Of a stretch of DNA of 64,000 bases, positions 3,882-48,366 are shown piece after piece. A program made the position numbers and the translations under genes. The number at the start of each line of letters is the position of its first letter. Position 1 is the stretch's first letter. Source of the DNA: Streptomyces chrestomyceticus JCM 4735 (lineage in GTDB: Bacteria; Actinomycetota; Actinomycetes; Streptomycetales; Streptomycetaceae); NCBI RefSeq assembly GCF_003865135.1, contig NZ_BHZC01000001.1, positions 8,680,001 to 8,744,000 on the forward strand, in the 5' to 3' direction. Below the pieces are notes generated by a model that ran no database searches, was not told where the DNA came from, and worked only from the letters and a program-made list of their open reading frames with translations.

Positions 3882-5471
3882 TTATTTGGTGGCTTGGTGT
3901 GGACTGTGCTGCGTGGGGGTGTCGCTATCCGGGTTGGGGCCGGGCTCGGGGAGGCGGTAGGTACGGCGGCCCGCGACGGCCCACCAGACGGTGGCCAGGG
4001 TGAGGACGAGGAACAGGGCCACGGGGGCGTAGTTGAAGGTGGCCAGGGCGACGGGGTGGGTCTGGGGGAGGCAGAAGAGGATGGTGACGAAGGCGACCCA
4101 GAGGACGGCTACCCGGCCGACCGGGACACCCCAGCGGCCCAGGTTCCACGGGCCGGGACGGAACGTGCGGCGGTGGCGGAGGCGCAGGTAGATGGGGATC
4201 GCGTACGCCGGGGTGATGCCGATGATGTTGATGGAGGTCACGGCCGCGTACGCCGCCGAGGAGTAGAGGGAGGGGAGGGCGAGGACGGCGGCCACGGCCA
4301 CGGAGAGCAGGACGGCCCGGGTCGGTGTGCCGGTACGCGGAGAGACGTGCCGCCACCATACGGAACCGGGCAGCGCGCCGTCGCGGGAGAACGCGAACAC
4401 CATGCGGGAGGTGGCCGCCACCTCCGCGTTGCCGCAGAACAACTGCGCGACGATCACCACCAGCAGCAGCGCCTTCGCCCCGCTGACGCCGAGCGCGTCG
4501 AGGAAGATCTGCGCGGGCGGCACGCCGGTCGGGGTGTTCTGCACGCCGGCGTAGTCCTGGATGGCGAACGTCAGCCCGGCCAGCAGGAAGAAGCCCGCGA
4601 CCCAGGACCAGCGGATGGCCCGTACGATCCCGCGGGCCGCGTTCACCTGCGCACCGGTGGTCTCCTCGCTCAGGTGCGCCGACGCGTCATAGCCGCTGAA
4701 GGTGTACTGGGCCAGCAGCAGGCCGATCAGCGCCACGTACAGCGTGCTGTTCCAGCCGGTGCCGTTGACGAAGGTGGTGAAGACGAAGGAGGGGGACTGG
4801 TGGTGGGCGGGCACCAGCCACAGGACGCCGACGATGAGCGCGACCCCGGCCAGGTGCCACCACACGGAGACGGTGTTGAGGATGCTGACCAGGCGTACGC
4901 CGAAGAGGTTCAGCGTCGCGTGCAGCGCCAGGATGCAGACGTAGATGACCATGAGTGAGCCGGGGGTGGGCTCGAAGCCCCACTGCAGCCCGGCGAACGC
5001 GCCCGCGAACAGGGCGCAGCCGTAGTCGATGCCGGCGATCGCGCCGAGCAGGCCGAGGAGGTTCAGCCAGCCGGTGTACCAGCCCCAGCGCTTGCCGCCG
5101 AGCCGGTCGGCCATGAAGTACAGGGCGCCGGACGTCGGGTAGGCGCTGGTGACTTCGGCCAGTCCGGCGCCGACGAACATGACCATGATGCCGACGACGA
5201 TCCAGCCCCACATCATCACCGCGGGGCCGCCGGTGACCAGGCCGAATCCGTACAGCGTCAGACAGCCGGAGAGGACGGAGATCACGGAGAAGGAGATGGC
5301 GAAGTTCGCGAACGGGCCCATCCGCCGTTTCAGTACGGGGGTGTAGCCCAGCTTGCGGAGGAAGTCGTGGTCGGAGCAGGGGTTGGCGGGGGCCTGGCTG
5401 TCAGGGGTGGATTGCGATTGCCTGGCGGGGGCGGGCCGCCTGGCCGGGTCGGGTCGCCTTGCGCGCGTCAC
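3882..5471 (-). CDS. APC-family amino acid permease (GABA/BAT1-type)
   Basis: A 529-residue integral membrane protein with about twelve hydrophobic helices. It has the N-terminal signature of the APC superfamily (LGYTPVLKRRMGPFANFAISFSVIS region) and a conserved unwound helix 1 region followed by GGPAVMMWGW. This subgroup includes eukaryotic BAT1/UGA4-like and bacterial GABA/choline/amino-acid permeases, which import amino acids or gamma-aminobutyrate by proton symport. The start is GTG 5471, because GGAGG lies eight bases upstream of it. A longer reading from TTG 5513 has no such site and adds only 14 residues. The N-terminal 40 residues are Arg/Pro/Ser-rich and probably cytoplasmic. A large perfect dyad lies 133 bases upstream and could be its operator. 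The substrate is not determinable here. Confidence 0.85.
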   Translation of the reverse strand: MTRARRPDPARRPAPARQSQSTPDSQAPANPCSDHDFLRKLGYTPVLKRRMGPFANFAISFSVISVLSGCLTLYGFGLVTGGPAVMMWGWIVVGIMVMFVGAGLAEVTSAYPTSGALYFMADRLGGKRWGWYTGWLNLLGLLGAIAGIDYGCALFAGAFAGLQWGFEPTPGSLMVIYVCILALHATLNLFGVRLVSILNTVSVWWHLAGVALIVGVLWLVPAHHQSPSFVFTTFVNGTGWNSTLYVALIGLLLAQYTFSGYDASAHLSEETTGAQVNAARGIVRAIRWSWVAGFFLLAGLTFAIQDYAGVQNTPTGVPPAQIFLDALGVSGAKALLLVVIVAQLFCGNAEVAATSRMVFAFSRDGALPGSVWWRHVSPRTGTPTRAVLLSVAVAAVLALPSLYSSAAYAAVTSINIIGITPAYAIPIYLRLRHRRTFRPGPWNLGRWGVPVGRVAVLWVAFVTILFCLPQTHPVALATFNYAPVALFLVLTLATVWWAVAGRRTYRLPEPGPNPDSDTPTQHSPHQATK

Positions 5472-5603
5472 GGATGCAGCCTCCAGTACGGGGTGGATGA
5501 GCCGTTGGCGCAAGGAAAGGACCCGGGAGGTGGGTGTGTCGAGGCTTTTCCGGTCGAGTGGCCGGATCAGTGGGGCGGCATCTGTATCGGTACGACGGGC
5601 CGT

Positions 5604-5651
5604 CCCCGTTACGTCGTTACGTGGGCGTGTCGACGTAACGACGTAACGGGG
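5604..5651. repeat. Perfect 19-bp inverted repeat built from tandem 8-bp units
   Basis: The arms 5604-5622 (CCCCGTTACGTCGTTACGT) and 5633-5651 are exact reverse complements with a 10-base loop. Each arm itself holds two tandem copies of CGTTACGT/ACGTAACG. It sits between the stop of the DUF5685 gene (5693) and the start of the permease (5471), both read leftward. It could end DUF5685 transcription (no T-run follows) or serve as a multi-site operator for the permease. Multiple half-sites in an exact dyad favour protein binding. Confidence 0.8.
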
Positions 5652-5692
5652 GCGGATGGGGAAGGCGGGTTGGGGAGTGGCGGCCGTGCGGG

Positions 5693-7125
5693 TCAGCAGT
5701 CGCAGCAGCAGCCGTCACAACAGCAGGAGTCCGGGCAGCAGTTGCAGCATTCGCAACTGTCACAGCAGTCGCAGTCCCGGCAGCAGCCCTCGTGCTTCTT
5801 GCGCGACCACGGGCCCTCGTACTCCTCGGCGCAGCAGAGCTGGCAGGTGCAGCAGAGTCCGACGGCGACCGCGCAGCCGGTCAGGAGGCCGCGGGGCTTT
5901 TTCGGCGGGTGGGGGATGCCAGGCCCGCCAGAGCCGCCGTGGCCGCCGAAGCCGCCATGCCAGCCATGTCCACCGTCGCTTCCGTGGCCCCCATGCCCGC
6001 CGGAATCACCGTGGCCCCCATGGCCCCCGTAACCCCCATAGCCCCCACTCCCCCGAAACCACCCTGCCCGCCCTGCGGCACCGCTCCGCCCGCGTACGGG
6101 TTCTGCGGCCCGTTCAGGTGCTGTGGGCCGTGGGCGTACGGGCCGCTGGGCGGCGCCTGGCCGTACGAAGGTGGCGCGGGGTACGGCTGCGGTTGAGGCT
6201 GCGGCTGCCCGTACGGATTGCCGGTCCCGCCGTCGTACGGGCCCGCCCCGTGCCCCTGGTGCGAGCACGACGCCGTACCGAAGGCGCGGTCCACGGACCG
6301 CCGCAGCTCGTGCACGAGCAGCGCGTGCACCAGCGCGGAGTCGGTGAACTCCACGTCGCGCAGCGCGAGGCGGATGCCGTGCAGCGCGTCGTCGCACAGC
6401 CGGCGGGCCTGTGCGGGGGAGGCACCGGTGGCGGTCAGCGGGTTCCAGGCGCCCTCGGCGGCGTCCGCCGCGCGGTCCTCCACGGCGTCGAGGAGGTGGG
6501 CCAGGCGTCCGAAGAGCCGGCCGGCCTCGGCCAGCGGTGCGGCGTTCCCGGGGCGGCCCGCGAGGACCGCGGTGTGCGCGAAGGCGGCGGCGGTCGCCGT
6601 CTCGGTGGGTTCGGTGATGACGGTCAACGGGGTGCCGGGACCCGCGAGTTGTTCGATGCCCACCTGCCGGTCGACGACGTCGACGAGGACGGACGTGTCG
6701 AAGCCGAGGGTCGCGCCGGTACGGGCGCCCGCCCGGTCCCAGCCGGCGGCGACCTTGCGTGCCGCGGCGGCCACCGGGCGGCGGCGCAGCAGCCCGTTCC
6801 GGTCGGCGACGTGGTCGCGTATCTTCGCCGAGGCGAGCACCAGCGAGACCGAAGCGGCCAGCCGGGCGCCCTCGCCGTTCGCCACCGAGGCGGTCCGCAT
6901 GCCGCGCAGCGGGCAGGGCCCGGCGGTACGGCGCTGTGCTGCCGCCCGGCCGGACTGGGCGTCCGTCAGGACGGACACGATCAAGCCATCGTAATTGGTG
7001 ACCACCCGGGCGAACTGCCCGTGATCACCGCGCAGGGCGAGGCACAGCCCGCACAGATGGGCCATCCACTCGGCCTTGAGCCCGTTGGACAGGCGATGGG
7101 TGCAGGGCCTGACGATTCCGAACAC
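5693..7125 (-). CDS. DUF5685-family protein with Gly/His-rich linker and Cys-rich tail, one frameshift
   Basis: The gene starts at GTG 7125 (FGIVRPCTHRLS follows), with a GGGGGAT ribosome binding site, and begins with the domain typical of Streptomyces DUF5685 proteins: CxxC-type MAHLCGLCLALRGDHGQF and NYDGLIVSVLTDAQ, then helical blocks to about residue 310. A Pro/Gln/Tyr/Gly-rich linker follows. In the + sequence the run of five C at 6050-6054 appears one base short. Adding one base joins the first frame to a second that reads a Gly/Tyr/His-rich segment, PHPPKKPRG, a hydrophobic GCAVAVGLCCTCQLCC segment and a tail with about two dozen cysteines ending at 5693. That ending matches the family's usual Cys-rich C-terminus, so a single-base loss or sequencing error is likely. 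Restored length is 477 residues. Function is unknown; metal binding is a reasonable guess. Confidence 0.75.
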
Positions 7126-44627: not shown

Positions 44628-44661
44628 CCCCGCCGGGCGGCCCGTGGCCGGCCCGGCGGGG
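44628..44661 (-). terminator. Hairpin terminator of the 2-MIB operon
   Basis: CCCCGCCGGGC (44628-44638) pairs with GCCCGGCGGGG (44651-44661), 11 perfect pairs and a 12-base loop. It lies just past the methyltransferase stop (44676) in leftward reading. Confidence 0.75.
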
Positions 44662-44675
44662 TTCCGGAGTGTTCC

Positions 44676-45551
44676 TCAGATCCGGTCGGCGGCGATCAGC
44701 AGGTATTGGAAGCTGCCGTTGCGGTACGCGGTCAGAAAGGTTTCCTCAATGCCCGTGACCAGGTGGTCGGCCTGGCTGCGCAGTTCCCAGTACGGCAGGG
44801 TGGCCTCGGTGAGGTCCTGGACGTGTACGGGGACCAGCCGGTGGCGGGCCATCGCGCGGAAGTACGCCGACCGTGGGTGGATGTCGCAGATGTAGTGGGC
44901 GTTGATGAGGGACACCTCGCGGGAGGCGCGCCCGTAGGCGTCGTTGTAACAGCCGGTGATCGTCACATAGCGACCGCCGCGCCGCAGCAGCCGCGCGTGT
45001 TCGGCGAACAGCAGGTCGAGCTCGACGTACATGGTCGACTCGTTGTTCCAGGACGCCGCGTACGCGCCGGTCGCGAAGCCGGTGTCGAGCATGTTGCGGT
45101 GGTGGTAGCGCACCTTGTCGGCGATACCGCGCTTGCGGGCCTGCTCGTTGGCGAAGTCGGCCTGCTTGGCGGAGATGGTGGCCCCGTCGGTGTGGCAGCC
45201 GTGGCGCAGGTGCGCGACCACGCTGCCGCCGCCGCGCCCGCACCCGGCGTCGAAGACGCGGTCGCCGGGCGTCAGCGCACCGAGGTGGGAGGCGAGCAGT
45301 TCGGCCTGGGCGTGTTCGAGGCGGTGCAGTTCACCGGTGAGGCGTTCGCGGCGCCGGACGGGGTCCGGCTCGTCCAGTACGGACCGGTCGGCCTCGCCGA
45401 TGCCGTAGTGGTGGTGGTACAGGTCGTCGATCTTGCCGAGCTCCAGGTTGACCGGGTTCTCCTCGGTGTTCCAGTAGTCCGCGACGCGGGCCTGGTACGT
45501 GGAGTGGGTCGGCATGAGCGGGCGTGCGGTGGGGACGTGCGCAGTGGTCAA
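44676..45551 (-). CDS. gpmt: Geranyl diphosphate 2-C-methyltransferase (2-MIB biosynthesis)
   Basis: A 291-residue SAM-dependent C-methyltransferase matching the actinobacterial enzyme that methylates geranyl diphosphate at C2 to give 2-methyl-GPP, the precursor of 2-methylisoborneol. It shows YQARVADYWNTEENPVNLEL, YHHHYGIGEADRSVLDEPDP, VFDAGCGRGGG (SAM motif I), RHGCHTDGATISAKQADFAN, NNESTMYVELDLLFAEHARL, RGGRYVTITGCYNDAYG and INAHYICDIHPRSAYF. The start is TTG 45551, because AAGGAG lies six bases upstream; this rare start may lower its level relative to the cyclase. It is third in the encapsulin-cyclase-methyltransferase operon, 33 bases after the cyclase stop. Confidence 0.93.
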   Translation of the reverse strand: MTTAHVPTARPLMPTHSTYQARVADYWNTEENPVNLELGKIDDLYHHHYGIGEADRSVLDEPDPVRRRERLTGELHRLEHAQAELLASHLGALTPGDRVFDAGCGRGGGSVVAHLRHGCHTDGATISAKQADFANEQARKRGIADKVRYHHRNMLDTGFATGAYAASWNNESTMYVELDLLFAEHARLLRRGGRYVTITGCYNDAYGRASREVSLINAHYICDIHPRSAYFRAMARHRLVPVHVQDLTEATLPYWELRSQADHLVTGIEETFLTAYRNGSFQYLLIAADRI

Positions 45552-45584
45552 CGGTGACTCCTTGCCGTGGTGCGCTGGATCGGT

Positions 45585-46649
45585 CTACCAGTAGTTGGGC
45601 AGGTGGTAGCGGTCGCTGTTGGTGGCGTGCCATTCGTGGTTGCCGGCCACCCAGTCGGACAGGCTCCGGGTGTAGCGCTCCACGAGCGGGGAGGTTTCGG
45701 CCAGCTCGGCCGCCTCCGTCTCGTACGCCTCCATGATCTGGTTGTGGATGTCGACGCTCTTCAGGTAGGCGGCCTTCAGGCCGCGCCGGTCGTTGGCGGC
45801 CACCACCTGGGGCAGGTTCAGATGGTCCGGGTCGCTCGCCAGCTCCTTGGTGAAGGAGTACAGGTCGTTGACGATGGTGGTGGCGTTGCAGGCCAGGGCG
45901 GTGATCCGCTGGATCTCCGGGCGGGCGTACACGGCCTCGGGCAGCTCGTAGCCGTCCACGGCGTCGACGATCGACAGGCAGGGGCGGAAGTTGTTGAACT
46001 GCCGCATGACCAGGTACTCCCAGACACGCGGCATGTGCCGTGCCTCCGCCCAGGACGCCTCGGCGAGATAGCCGAGGTGCAGCCGGGCCATGTCGTGGAC
46101 GAACCGGCCGGCCTGGCTGGGGGTCGCCAGGGCCGCGTAGTCCTTCAGGGCCCAGTAGTACGAGCGCAGGGGCCCGTCGGCCTGCACGCCCTGGCGCCAC
46201 TCCTGCTCCGTCTCCGGAGTGCCGTGGAACGGGTCCAGGGCCGACTGGGCGATGATCAGCCGGCCGCCCAGGCCGCGGCGCGCGCCGCCCTTGCCCTCGT
46301 CCTCCTCGCAGTAGCAGGTGTCGACGATGTTCTCAGCCAGCAGCAGCTTGCCCGCGGCGGTGAGGCGTTCGAGGTCGGCCGCGGCGGGGTGCTGCAGGAC
46401 GACGGCCCGGCCGAACTGGAAGCCGGTGAAGTCGCCGGTCCACTGCGCGGGGAACAGGTCCAGCGCGCGGGCCCACTCCTCCAGTCTGCGGTCGATCTCC
46501 GCGGCCTTCTCCGGGTCGGCCGGGGCGGCCGGCCGGTACCGCAGCCCGGGGACGGCGCCGCCGCGCCGGGTCGGCCGGGCCGGGGCGAGGCTCGGCGGGC
46601 CGGGCATCCTGAACGCGGCGTTGGTGGCGGTGGTACTGGATGTGCTCAT
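45585..46649 (-). CDS. 2-Methylisoborneol synthase (terpene cyclase), likely encapsulin cargo
   Basis: A 354-residue class I terpene cyclase of the 2-MIB synthase group. It ionises 2-methyl-GPP and cyclises it to 2-methylisoborneol. The Asp-rich metal motif appears as NIVDTCYCEEDEGKGG and the second metal motif as NDLYSFTKELASD. The pyrophosphate-sensor region (RFVHDMARLHLGYLAEASWA) is present and the C-terminus ends in HEWHATNSDRYHLPNYW, as in known enzymes. The first 45 residues are Ala/Pro/Ser/Arg-rich and disordered (AFRMPGPPSLAPARPTRRG). Such an extension precedes the catalytic domain in related cyclases and has been described as the targeting segment for family 2B encapsulins. ATG 46649 follows GGAG; the gene starts 17 bases after the shell stop. 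Confidence 0.95.
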   Translation of the reverse strand: MSTSSTTATNAAFRMPGPPSLAPARPTRRGGAVPGLRYRPAAPADPEKAAEIDRRLEEWARALDLFPAQWTGDFTGFQFGRAVVLQHPAAADLERLTAAGKLLLAENIVDTCYCEEDEGKGGARRGLGGRLIIAQSALDPFHGTPETEQEWRQGVQADGPLRSYYWALKDYAALATPSQAGRFVHDMARLHLGYLAEASWAEARHMPRVWEYLVMRQFNNFRPCLSIVDAVDGYELPEAVYARPEIQRITALACNATTIVNDLYSFTKELASDPDHLNLPQVVAANDRRGLKAAYLKSVDIHNQIMEAYETEAAELAETSPLVERYTRSLSDWVAGNHEWHATNSDRYHLPNYW

Positions 46650-46666
46650 GGTCCGTACTCCACTGG

Positions 46667-48139
46667 TCAGTCGGCGGTCCGGCCGAGCTGGACGTTCTCC
46701 AGGACACCGGCCGCGTCCGGCACGAGGATGGCCAGCGAGTAGTAGGCGGTGACGAGGTAGTTGATGACGGCGGACTGGTCGATGCCCATGAAGCGGACGT
46801 TCAGGCCGGGCTGGTGCTCCTCGGGGAGACCCGTCCGGTACAGGCCGACGACGCCCTGGTCGTCCTCGCCGGTCCGCAGCGCGATGATGCTGCTGGTGTG
46901 CGTCTCGCCGACGGGGATCTTGCCGCACGGGAAGATCGGGACGCCGCGCCAGGCCGGGACCTGGTGCCCGTTGACGTCCGCCGAGCCCGGCACCAGGCCG
47001 CGCTTGTTGCACTGCCGGAAGAAGGCGGCGATCGCCTTCGGATGGGCCAGGAAGAGCCGGGTCTTACGGCGCATGGACAGCAGCTCGTCCATGTCGTCGG
47101 GGGTGGGCGGGCCGGTGCGGGTACTGATGCGCTGCCCGTAGTCGGTGTTGTGCAGCAGCCCGAACTCCCGGTTGTTCACCAGCTCCCACTCCTGGCGTTC
47201 GCGGATCTCCTCGACCGTGAGCCGGAGTTGCTGCTGCGTCTGGTCCATCGGCTCGTTGTAGAGATCGGCGACCCGGGAGTGCACGCGCAGCACGCTCTGG
47301 GTCAGCGAGAGTTCGTACTCCCGAGGGGTGAGGTCGTAGTCGACGTAGCCGCCGGGCAGTGACGGTTCTCCGACGTGTCCGGCCTGCACCGGTACGTCCG
47401 CCTCGCCCCGGCGGTTCATCGGCCTCCGCTGCCGCTCCGCGTACGCGGCCAGGTGCGCGGCCAGGGAGGGCGCGCGGTCGGTGACCTCCCGGACCGTGTC
47501 CCAGGGCAGCGCCAGCAGGACGCCTGCGGTCTCGGCCCGTACCGACGTCAGCCACCGTGGGTCGGGGCGGCCGATCGCCTCGTCCCCGATCTGGTCGCCG
47601 TCCGTGACGACGCCGACGACCTCCTCCTCGCCGTACTTGCCGGGCGCGTAGCGGAGGAACCGGCCGTGGACGACGAGGTACGCCTCGGTGGCGGGCTGCC
47701 CCGCCTCGAAGAGGACCTGACCGGGCCGGACCTCCCGGACCCGGAAGCGTCCGGCGAGGTCCTTGAGCACCTCGGTGTCGCAGTAGCCGCGCAGGACCGG
47801 CAGCTCGGTGAGGGTCCGCGGGATCACCTTGATGTCGTCCGCGCCGTTGTGCTCGAACTGGACGCGGCCACGGCCGGTACGGAGCTGCAGGCGCCGGTTG
47901 ACCCGGTAGGTGCCACCCTTGACGTCCACCCACGGCAGCATCTTCAGCAGCCATCGGGACGTGATGGCCTGCATCTGGGGCGGTGTCTTGGTGGTGGTCG
48001 CCAGTTGGCGCGCGGCCCGGGTGCTGAGACTGGTGAGCACGCTGTCCGGGGACGGGCCGGACGGATCGGACGGGTCGGGGGCGCTCTCTTCGGCTGCGGA
48101 ACCGGGGACACGGTCGGGGACGCGGTCCGGTACGGGCAC
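46667..48139 (-). CDS. Family 2B encapsulin shell protein with cyclic-nucleotide-binding insert
   Basis: A 490-residue protein. Residues about 1-115 are a disordered Pro/Asp/Ser-rich start followed by an HK97-like N-arm. Residues about 120-225 form a cNMP-binding domain ([36 protein letters not shown] as the phosphate-binding cassette). From residue about 260 the HK97-fold resumes ([81 protein letters not shown], [20 protein letters not shown]). This domain order defines family 2B encapsulins, which form large icosahedral shells and in several actinobacteria and cyanobacteria sit beside 2-MIB synthase. GTG 48139 follows GGAGG at four bases. It is first in the operon and probably houses the cyclase. 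Confidence 0.93.
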
Positions 48140-48366
48140 ATTTCCTCCGGAGGTGAACAGGAGTGAGGCGAACGGCCGTTGGTGAACAAGGGGGCCGTGT
48201 GCGGCAATAAGCGAAACAGGTGGAAGTGTGCCGCCGGTACGGCGTGAAAGGGGGCGCCTTTGCGTTCGCGAGGCGTAAACATCTGATGGTTGCTAAAAGG
48301 GGCGCGGTGGTGCTGACGCGCGCCCCCTTGGAAGGGTGGGGTGACTGTCGGGTGTCGTACTGATCA

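Follow-up and report, generated by a model that had tools for sequence, protein, structure and literature searches.

A family 2B encapsulin operon of Streptomyces chrestomyceticus with a short-tailed 2-methylisoborneol-type terpene cyclase and a candidate PGPP shell tag

Background

Operons that join a family 2B encapsulin shell to C-methyltransferases and to cyclases resembling 2-methylisoborneol synthase (2-MIBS) were described in 2021 (PMC8346489). Most 2-MIBS-like cyclases carry 100-120 unannotated residues in their tail, with the consensus GPTGLGT, an arrangement which is usual but not universal (PMC8346489). Three clades of 2-methylisoborneol (2-MIB) synthases, with signs of horizontal transfer, have been reported from Streptomyces (PMC6604706), short and long forms of the enzyme are already known (PMC10520479), and a two-component family 2B shell was described in 2025 (PMC12407261). 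In the open-licence literature, we found no text tying a short-tailed synthase clade to another motif or another shell lineage. Here we analyse an operon of Streptomyces chrestomyceticus JCM 4735 that encodes a family 2B shell, a probable synthase of the earthy odorant 2-MIB, and the enzyme supplying its substrate. The operon lies on the minus strand of a 64,000-nucleotide stretch of DNA, hereafter the window (contig NZ_BHZC01000001.1, positions 8,680,001 to 8,744,000).

The arrangement is that of the known eshA-mibA-mibB operon, in variant form, and the initial annotation of the locus was right to regard its kind as already described, given that the gene order matches. What seems new on comparison of the sequences is a short-tailed branch of cyclases with a motif of its own and a shell seemingly of another lineage. 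Starting from what is directly observed (the operon and its protein families, the clade and tail motif of the cyclase, the disorder prediction, and a conflict between shell and cyclase trees), we consider it moderately probable that a single-component family 2B encapsulin of a different shell lineage encloses the 2-MIB synthase, held by a PGPP tag in its short tail. Under this explanation, the methyltransferase would make 2-methylgeranyl diphosphate (2-methyl-GPP) in the cytoplasm, which would enter the shell and be cyclised inside to 2-MIB, and the product would then diffuse out. The short disordered tail would hold the cyclase to the inner shell wall via (L)PGPPx(L/I)AR and the basic run that follows, such that a PGPP-type tag, paired with a different shell lineage, would stand where other 2-MIB synthases have a GPTGLGT-type tag. 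Encapsulation of the cyclase, and a location of the methyltransferase outside the shell, are inferred here.

Results and discussion

Identity of the three proteins

The family 2B shell, 2-MIB-type synthase and geranyl diphosphate methyltransferase named in the initial annotation all score above the curated NCBIfam cut-off, which is 400 bits for each of the three profiles concerned. The shell reaches 716.7 bits (encap_f2b, NF041163) and the methyltransferase 459.2 bits (GPPMT equivalog, NF041943), while the synthase, at 410 bits, is barely over (encapsulin cargo terpene cyclase, NF041167). Among solved structures, the family 2B shells 9bhu, 9bje and 9bix match the query shell at 563-591 bits, aligned over residues 36-486 or more, and a profile search finds the HK97 similarity without which its identification would have fallen (Table 1). 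Only one shell gene is present in the operon, in contrast to the two-shell arrangement of two-component family 2B encapsulins.

A short tail with its own motif

A draw of 150 Streptomyces genomes gave 83 with a cargo-profile match at E <= 1e-60, and our locus set consists of all 97 matches of the draw, two of which (the query and L125) belong to the genome analysed here, together with 80 of 140 named close relatives (these overlap the draw partly, with nine short-tailed synthases repeated over their last 300 residues). Types were assigned from the bit scores of each locus with the query synthase and with the second synthase of the same genome (described below), using thresholds of our own choosing. 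The whole set contains 105 loci of type S (short tail), 41 of type A, 27 of type B, 2 of type C and 2 outgroup loci, and the draw contains the same numbers except for type S, of which it has 25. The outgroup loci (L218, L219) were dropped.

Type S tails, counted up to the residues VPGL, have a median length of 28 residues (range 23-155) and are 36 residues or shorter in 96 of 105 loci. Among the best 120 of 1293 homologs (8000 scored), 119 are 340-357 amino acids long and one has 389, and most carry PGPPx(L/I/P)(A/V) near their start. The residues GPP occur in the tail of 102 of the 105 type S loci (the exceptions being L049, L057 and L116) and the fuller form PGPPx(L/I)A in 76, whereas GP(T/S)GxG is found in none. 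Conversely, a loose GPTGLGT-type pattern is present in 64 of 67 type A, B and C proteins and in altered form in the other three (three further proteins, L159, L221 and L222, were truncated or unread and left out of the 70). When 65 thinned type S tails are aligned on PGP, their consensus is (L/P/M)-P-G-P-P-(N/S/D)-(L/I/P)-A-R-(S/T)-L-R-A-R-R, with motif columns of 3.9-4.1 bits against 1.3-1.8 for the three preceding residues; P(G/E)PP is kept in 62 of these 65 rows while synonymous codons vary freely.

Modelling with AlphaFold2 from an alignment of 43 close relatives predicts an all-helical domain after residue 29 of the synthase (mean pLDDT 76.9), and assigns the residues before it the low confidence that disordered tails get (Table 1), so that they are predicted to be disordered. 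The initial annotation had proposed a disordered N-terminus of unusual composition: the disorder agrees with the prediction, but the tail is unusual in more than its composition, being short, at about 29 residues. It had also pointed to the tails of encapsulin-linked relatives as the place to look for a conserved motif, and there is one, although it differs from the published GPTGLGT. Conservation of a short word within a disordered tail is consistent with a binding tag but does not prove one; that the motif acts as a shell tag is our inference. The synthase of S. acidicola (L061) has three copies of the motif, one of them as PEPP, in a tail of 155 residues, pointing to multiplication of a binding unit (a second copy in L081 was set aside because the start of that protein is uncertain).

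We also considered whether other proteins of this genome carry either word. The GPTGLGT DNA pattern occurs in one place, the other operon, a weak result given reversed-pattern controls of 1 and 1, and a looser pattern adds a single GPTGLGS, within an open frame of 147 codons whose third-position G+C content (GC3) is 0.95 (L273; G000:C1 4396165-4396184). The PGPP DNA pattern yields six near-matches, again weakly, against 15 and 7 in the controls. Other cargo with the same tag was rejected, as the five near-matches outside the operon lie in frames with GC3 of 0.55-0.76 and are no commoner than those to reversed patterns. The PGPP pattern extended by an Arg codon matches nowhere in the genome, the query gene included, since it has Pro there.

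Shell adjacency and the case against a shell tag

In 98 of the 105 type S loci, and in 24 of the 25 within the draw, a shell gene directly precedes the synthase, with a median gap of 4 bases. Seven loci lack an adjacent shell (L049, L050, L065, L081, L101, L117 and L202, with upstream sequence for L065 limited to 1.5 kb), and these occupy four or five places in the synthase tree. Upstream of the synthase, L049 retains scraps of the 3' end of a shell gene (E 3e-8), and L101 and L117 retain 15-16 residues like the end of a shell, as weak matches only; in all three the cyclase and methyltransferase stay. At least one family 2B shell was found in each of 74 genomes searched (of the 83, and thus picked for a cargo match), and consequently a cyclase without a neighbouring shell may still meet one.

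Several observations weigh against our explanation, the shell-less loci themselves being the first. GPP survives in six of the seven and PGPPx(L/I)A in three (L050 carries V rather than A), although a pure shell tag would be expected to decay there unless another shell of the genome takes up the cargo; motif decay following shell loss therefore fails as support for the tag. Furthermore, PGPPxLA and GPTGLGT show no significant similarity: a position matrix built from 60 long-tail motifs picks the GPP-like site as its best window in 47 of the 65 tails, yet scores are no better than those of shuffled tails, and we do not claim homology between the two. Additionally, L197 combines an A-like tail motif with a neighbouring B-like shell encoded on the opposite strand. 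This conflicts with the idea that the motif follows the shell, for which the position of type C shells among B-type shells, and the B-like SAAR or AAAR of type C tails, provide only a hint. Finally, according to PMC6428758, 2-MIB synthesis does not require eshA.

A potential alternative is that the tail motif serves the enzyme itself, through solubility, tuning of activity or subunit contacts, and that the shell is adjacent for shared regulation or is loaded via the folded domain of the cyclase. Retention of GPP in six of the seven shell-less loci speaks for this alternative, but the predicted disorder of the tail, the three copies in S. acidicola (odd for a structural element), and the different tail motif of long-tailed relatives all argue against it, and we regard it as unlikely.

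Probably separate histories of shell and cyclase

Phylogenies were built from thinned sets of synthases (65 S, 31 A, 21 B and 2 C, with a more careful tree of 41), shells (58 S, 29 A, 14 B, 2 C and 2 others, with a second tree of 69 and approximately unbiased (AU) tests on 66) and methyltransferases (71 sequences), and the groups used in topology tests were chosen after a first look at the trees. In the synthase tree, type S is sister to the long-tailed type C (S+C support 98, S support 99; 98/96 for S+C in the careful tree). Type S shells form a group with support of 100/100, adjoining the shells of two other terpene cyclase loci (L185, L189), while type C shells fall among B-type and other shells. 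These two other loci each contain two family 2B shells and a 2-MIBS-like cyclase with no methyltransferase match, as well as a protein of 737-749 amino acids that resembles, by eye, a geosmin-synthase-type cyclase.

Because type S shells are not sister to type C shells while the corresponding synthases are, we read the trees as indicating that a shell was probably exchanged at or near the origin of the type S clade, and old paralogy with loss is a possible substitute for that exchange. A broader form of this objection holds that the locus is an ordinary eshA-mibA-mibB operon, in which the tail and its motif have drifted in one lineage and the tree conflict reflects paralogy and loss with no exchange of shells. 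The gene order shared with S. venezuelae (PMC6428758) and the three synthase clades with horizontal transfer already on record (PMC6604706) are consistent with it; moreover, on the part of the cyclases the conflict is modest, as C+B synthases held together are rejected only at p 0.03, and the methyltransferase tree does not decide the matter (S+C not rejected, p 0.85). Against it, the shell tree rejects S+C (AU p 6e-5) as well as S+C+A (p 2e-4), and 43 shell positions have a residue common to at least 90% of 97 type S shells but to at most 10% of 53 type A, B and C shells. The sharp rise in information at the motif columns, relative to the residues just before them, is likewise unlike drift. 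On balance we find the drift and paralogy account rather doubtful, and retain the explanation of a tagged cyclase within a shell of another lineage.

More tentatively still, tag and shell may have been exchanged together: a GPTGLGT-tagged ancestor would have met another family 2B shell lineage and its tag would have changed to PGPPx(L/I)AR, such that one cell may run two 2-MIB nanocompartments whose related cyclases are sorted by a short tag code. This is a possibility that we raise without leaning on it.

Short-type synthases also occur on two very large records filed as plasmids (NZ_AP026074.1 and NZ_CP081497.1, with 86% and 80% identity across 97% of the query), and the gene may thus move between strains. 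No match was found in phage records, and a phage origin is not supported.

Product of the short-tailed synthase

The metal ligands of class I terpene cyclases are retained, with D110 and the residues N261, S265 and E269 (which we take to be the NSE ligands) invariant in the alignment of 43 clade members. At E <= 1e-60, the NF041167 profile matches a single protein of S. parvulus JCM 4068, the short-type L099, and emission of 2-MIB has been reported for another strain of that species, B1682 (three stars in the published table; PMC7697265). Although it combines two different strains, this is the best evidence that the short-type synthase probably makes 2-MIB, and by extension 2-MIB would be the product of this operon in S. 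chrestomyceticus. An alternative hypothesis is that the short-tailed cyclase makes another C11 terpene, giving the two operons of the genome two products. The two cyclases are 68% identical over 327 residues and their metal motifs differ (DTCYCEED here, DDCYCEDYGG in the second operon), as this hypothesis would allow; the S. parvulus case and the invariance of the first Asp and the NSE triad speak against it, however, and we consider it distinctly improbable. With respect to the methyltransferase, no common tail motif is apparent among the 12 N-termini displayed.

The inserted domain of the shell

The initial annotation had raised the question of whether cyclic adenosine monophosphate (cAMP) or another nucleotide gates the shell, which would require its inserted domain to bind such a ligand. 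In favour of this, the domain matches the Pfam cNMP_binding family, and the query shell possesses Arg195, opposite the Arg of a Crp-like protein from this genome in the alignment. We placed the phosphate-binding cassette using a fragment of E. coli CRP that includes Arg82. The cassette Glu corresponds to Asp186 in the query shell, and its Arg is absent at 196 but present at 195. Across all 150 aligned shells, the place of CRP Arg82 is filled by Trp, His, Tyr or Ala, mostly Trp, and never by Arg; at position 195, only 15 of 97 type S shells (the query among them) have Arg, while 78 have Leu. Since the alignment is ambiguous by one residue here (195 or 196), we do not assert that the cassette Arg is absent from every shell. 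PMC12407261 states, citing a preprint, that the inserted domain of family 2B shells binds no cyclic nucleotide. From these residues cAMP gating appears unlikely, and gating by any cyclic nucleotide bound in the inserted domain seems to us very improbable indeed.

Layout and flanking elements

The features of the locus are collected in Table 1. As first annotated, the three genes form one leftward operon in the order shell, synthase, methyltransferase, with gaps of 17 and 33 bases and a TTG start for the last. The view that a hairpin closes the operon holds only in part. Its fold beats 200 of 200 shuffles (z -2.98) and is real as a fold, but the hairpin is weak as a terminator: it is not among the results of the terminator scan, and a run of four T sits 8 bases past the stem. 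An Rfam scan gave no match at gathering scores. Upstream of the shell gene, 23 columns are conserved at 90% or more across 58 aligned type S operons, and the region is likely, from this alignment, to be a promoter or leader; the conserved blocks could not be made out by eye in the nine type A, B and C stretches displayed.

Table 1 Features of the encapsulin operon (positions in the window)
Feature	Position	Strand	Basis or details
Family 2B encapsulin shell gene (EshA-type)	46667..48139	-	490 aa, GTG start after GGAGG
HK97-type shell domain, SrpI-like, residues 236-486	46682..47434	-	PF19307, E 5.2e-133
Inserted cyclic nucleotide monophosphate (cNMP)-binding-fold domain, residues 135-221	47477..47737	-	Pfam; Trp196 at place of CRP Arg82, Arg195 beside
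2-Methylisoborneol-type terpene cyclase gene, short-tailed clade	45585..46649	-	354 aa, ATG start; profile matches, tree
Short N-terminal tail, residues 1-29, predicted disordered	46563..46649	-	pLDDT < 50
Conserved tail motif PGPPSLA, residues 16-22, proposed shell tag	46584..46604	-	Tail alignments, pattern counts
Metal-binding motif DTCYCEE, residues 110-116	46302..46322	-	D110 invariant in 43 aligned clade members
NSE metal-binding triad N261-S265-E269	45843..45869	-	Invariant in 43 aligned clade members
Geranyl diphosphate 2-C-methyltransferase gene	44676..45551	-	291 aa, TTG start; profile match
G+C-rich hairpin 3' of methyltransferase gene	44628..44661	-	Shuffling test of fold
Conserved upstream region, likely promoter or leader	48140..48270	-	Alignment of 58 short-type operons

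Other family 2B shells of the genome

The 9.38 Mb genome of S. chrestomyceticus contains five family 2B shells above the profile cut-off. A second complete shell-cyclase-methyltransferase operon (L125 5786-9386; G000:C1 about 745785-749385) has the same three genes in the same order, with the cyclase 68%, the methyltransferase 68% and the shell 59% identical to those of the query, but its cyclase has 419 amino acids and a GPTGLGTSAAR tag, and its shell groups with type B shells. Among the 25 type S genomes of the draw, 7 have an additional match to the cargo profile at E <= 1e-60. The S. chrestomyceticus genome constitutes a natural paired experiment, in which the same pathway is represented with two shells and two tail motifs, and bears on the way in which related cyclases reach their respective family 2B shells; a minimal family 2B tag would also help in loading foreign enzymes. 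Elsewhere in the genome, an adjacent pair of family 2B shells (L126 6654-9701) lies downstream of a gene at 4502-5965 that resembles, by eye, a xylulose-kinase-type sugar kinase, and a divergent family 2B shell (L127 7191-8540; 642.7 bits to the profile) has the longest branch in the tree of 69 shells.

Comparison with known systems

By sequence, the closest solved relative of the cyclase is PDB 4ZQ8 ('Isoprenoid Synthase'; 686 bits), which is also short-tailed and carries LPGPPTL. We found no publication naming this entry in the open-licence literature, and we know of no product for it.

With the eshA-mibA-mibB operon of S. venezuelae (PMC6428758), the locus shares an EshA-type shell, a 2-MIB synthase and a geranyl diphosphate methyltransferase in the same order; for its part, it belongs to the short-tailed clade and has the conserved upstream blocks of that clade. 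With the terpene-cyclase encapsulins of family 2B (PMC8346489; 9bhu), it has in common an HK97 shell with an inserted cNMP-like domain, a 2-MIBS-like cargo and a methyltransferase. It departs from the systems of PMC8346489 in possessing a tail of about 29 rather than 100-120 residues, with PGPPx(L/I)A in place of GPTGLGT, and its shell lies outside the clades of the type A, B and C shells examined.

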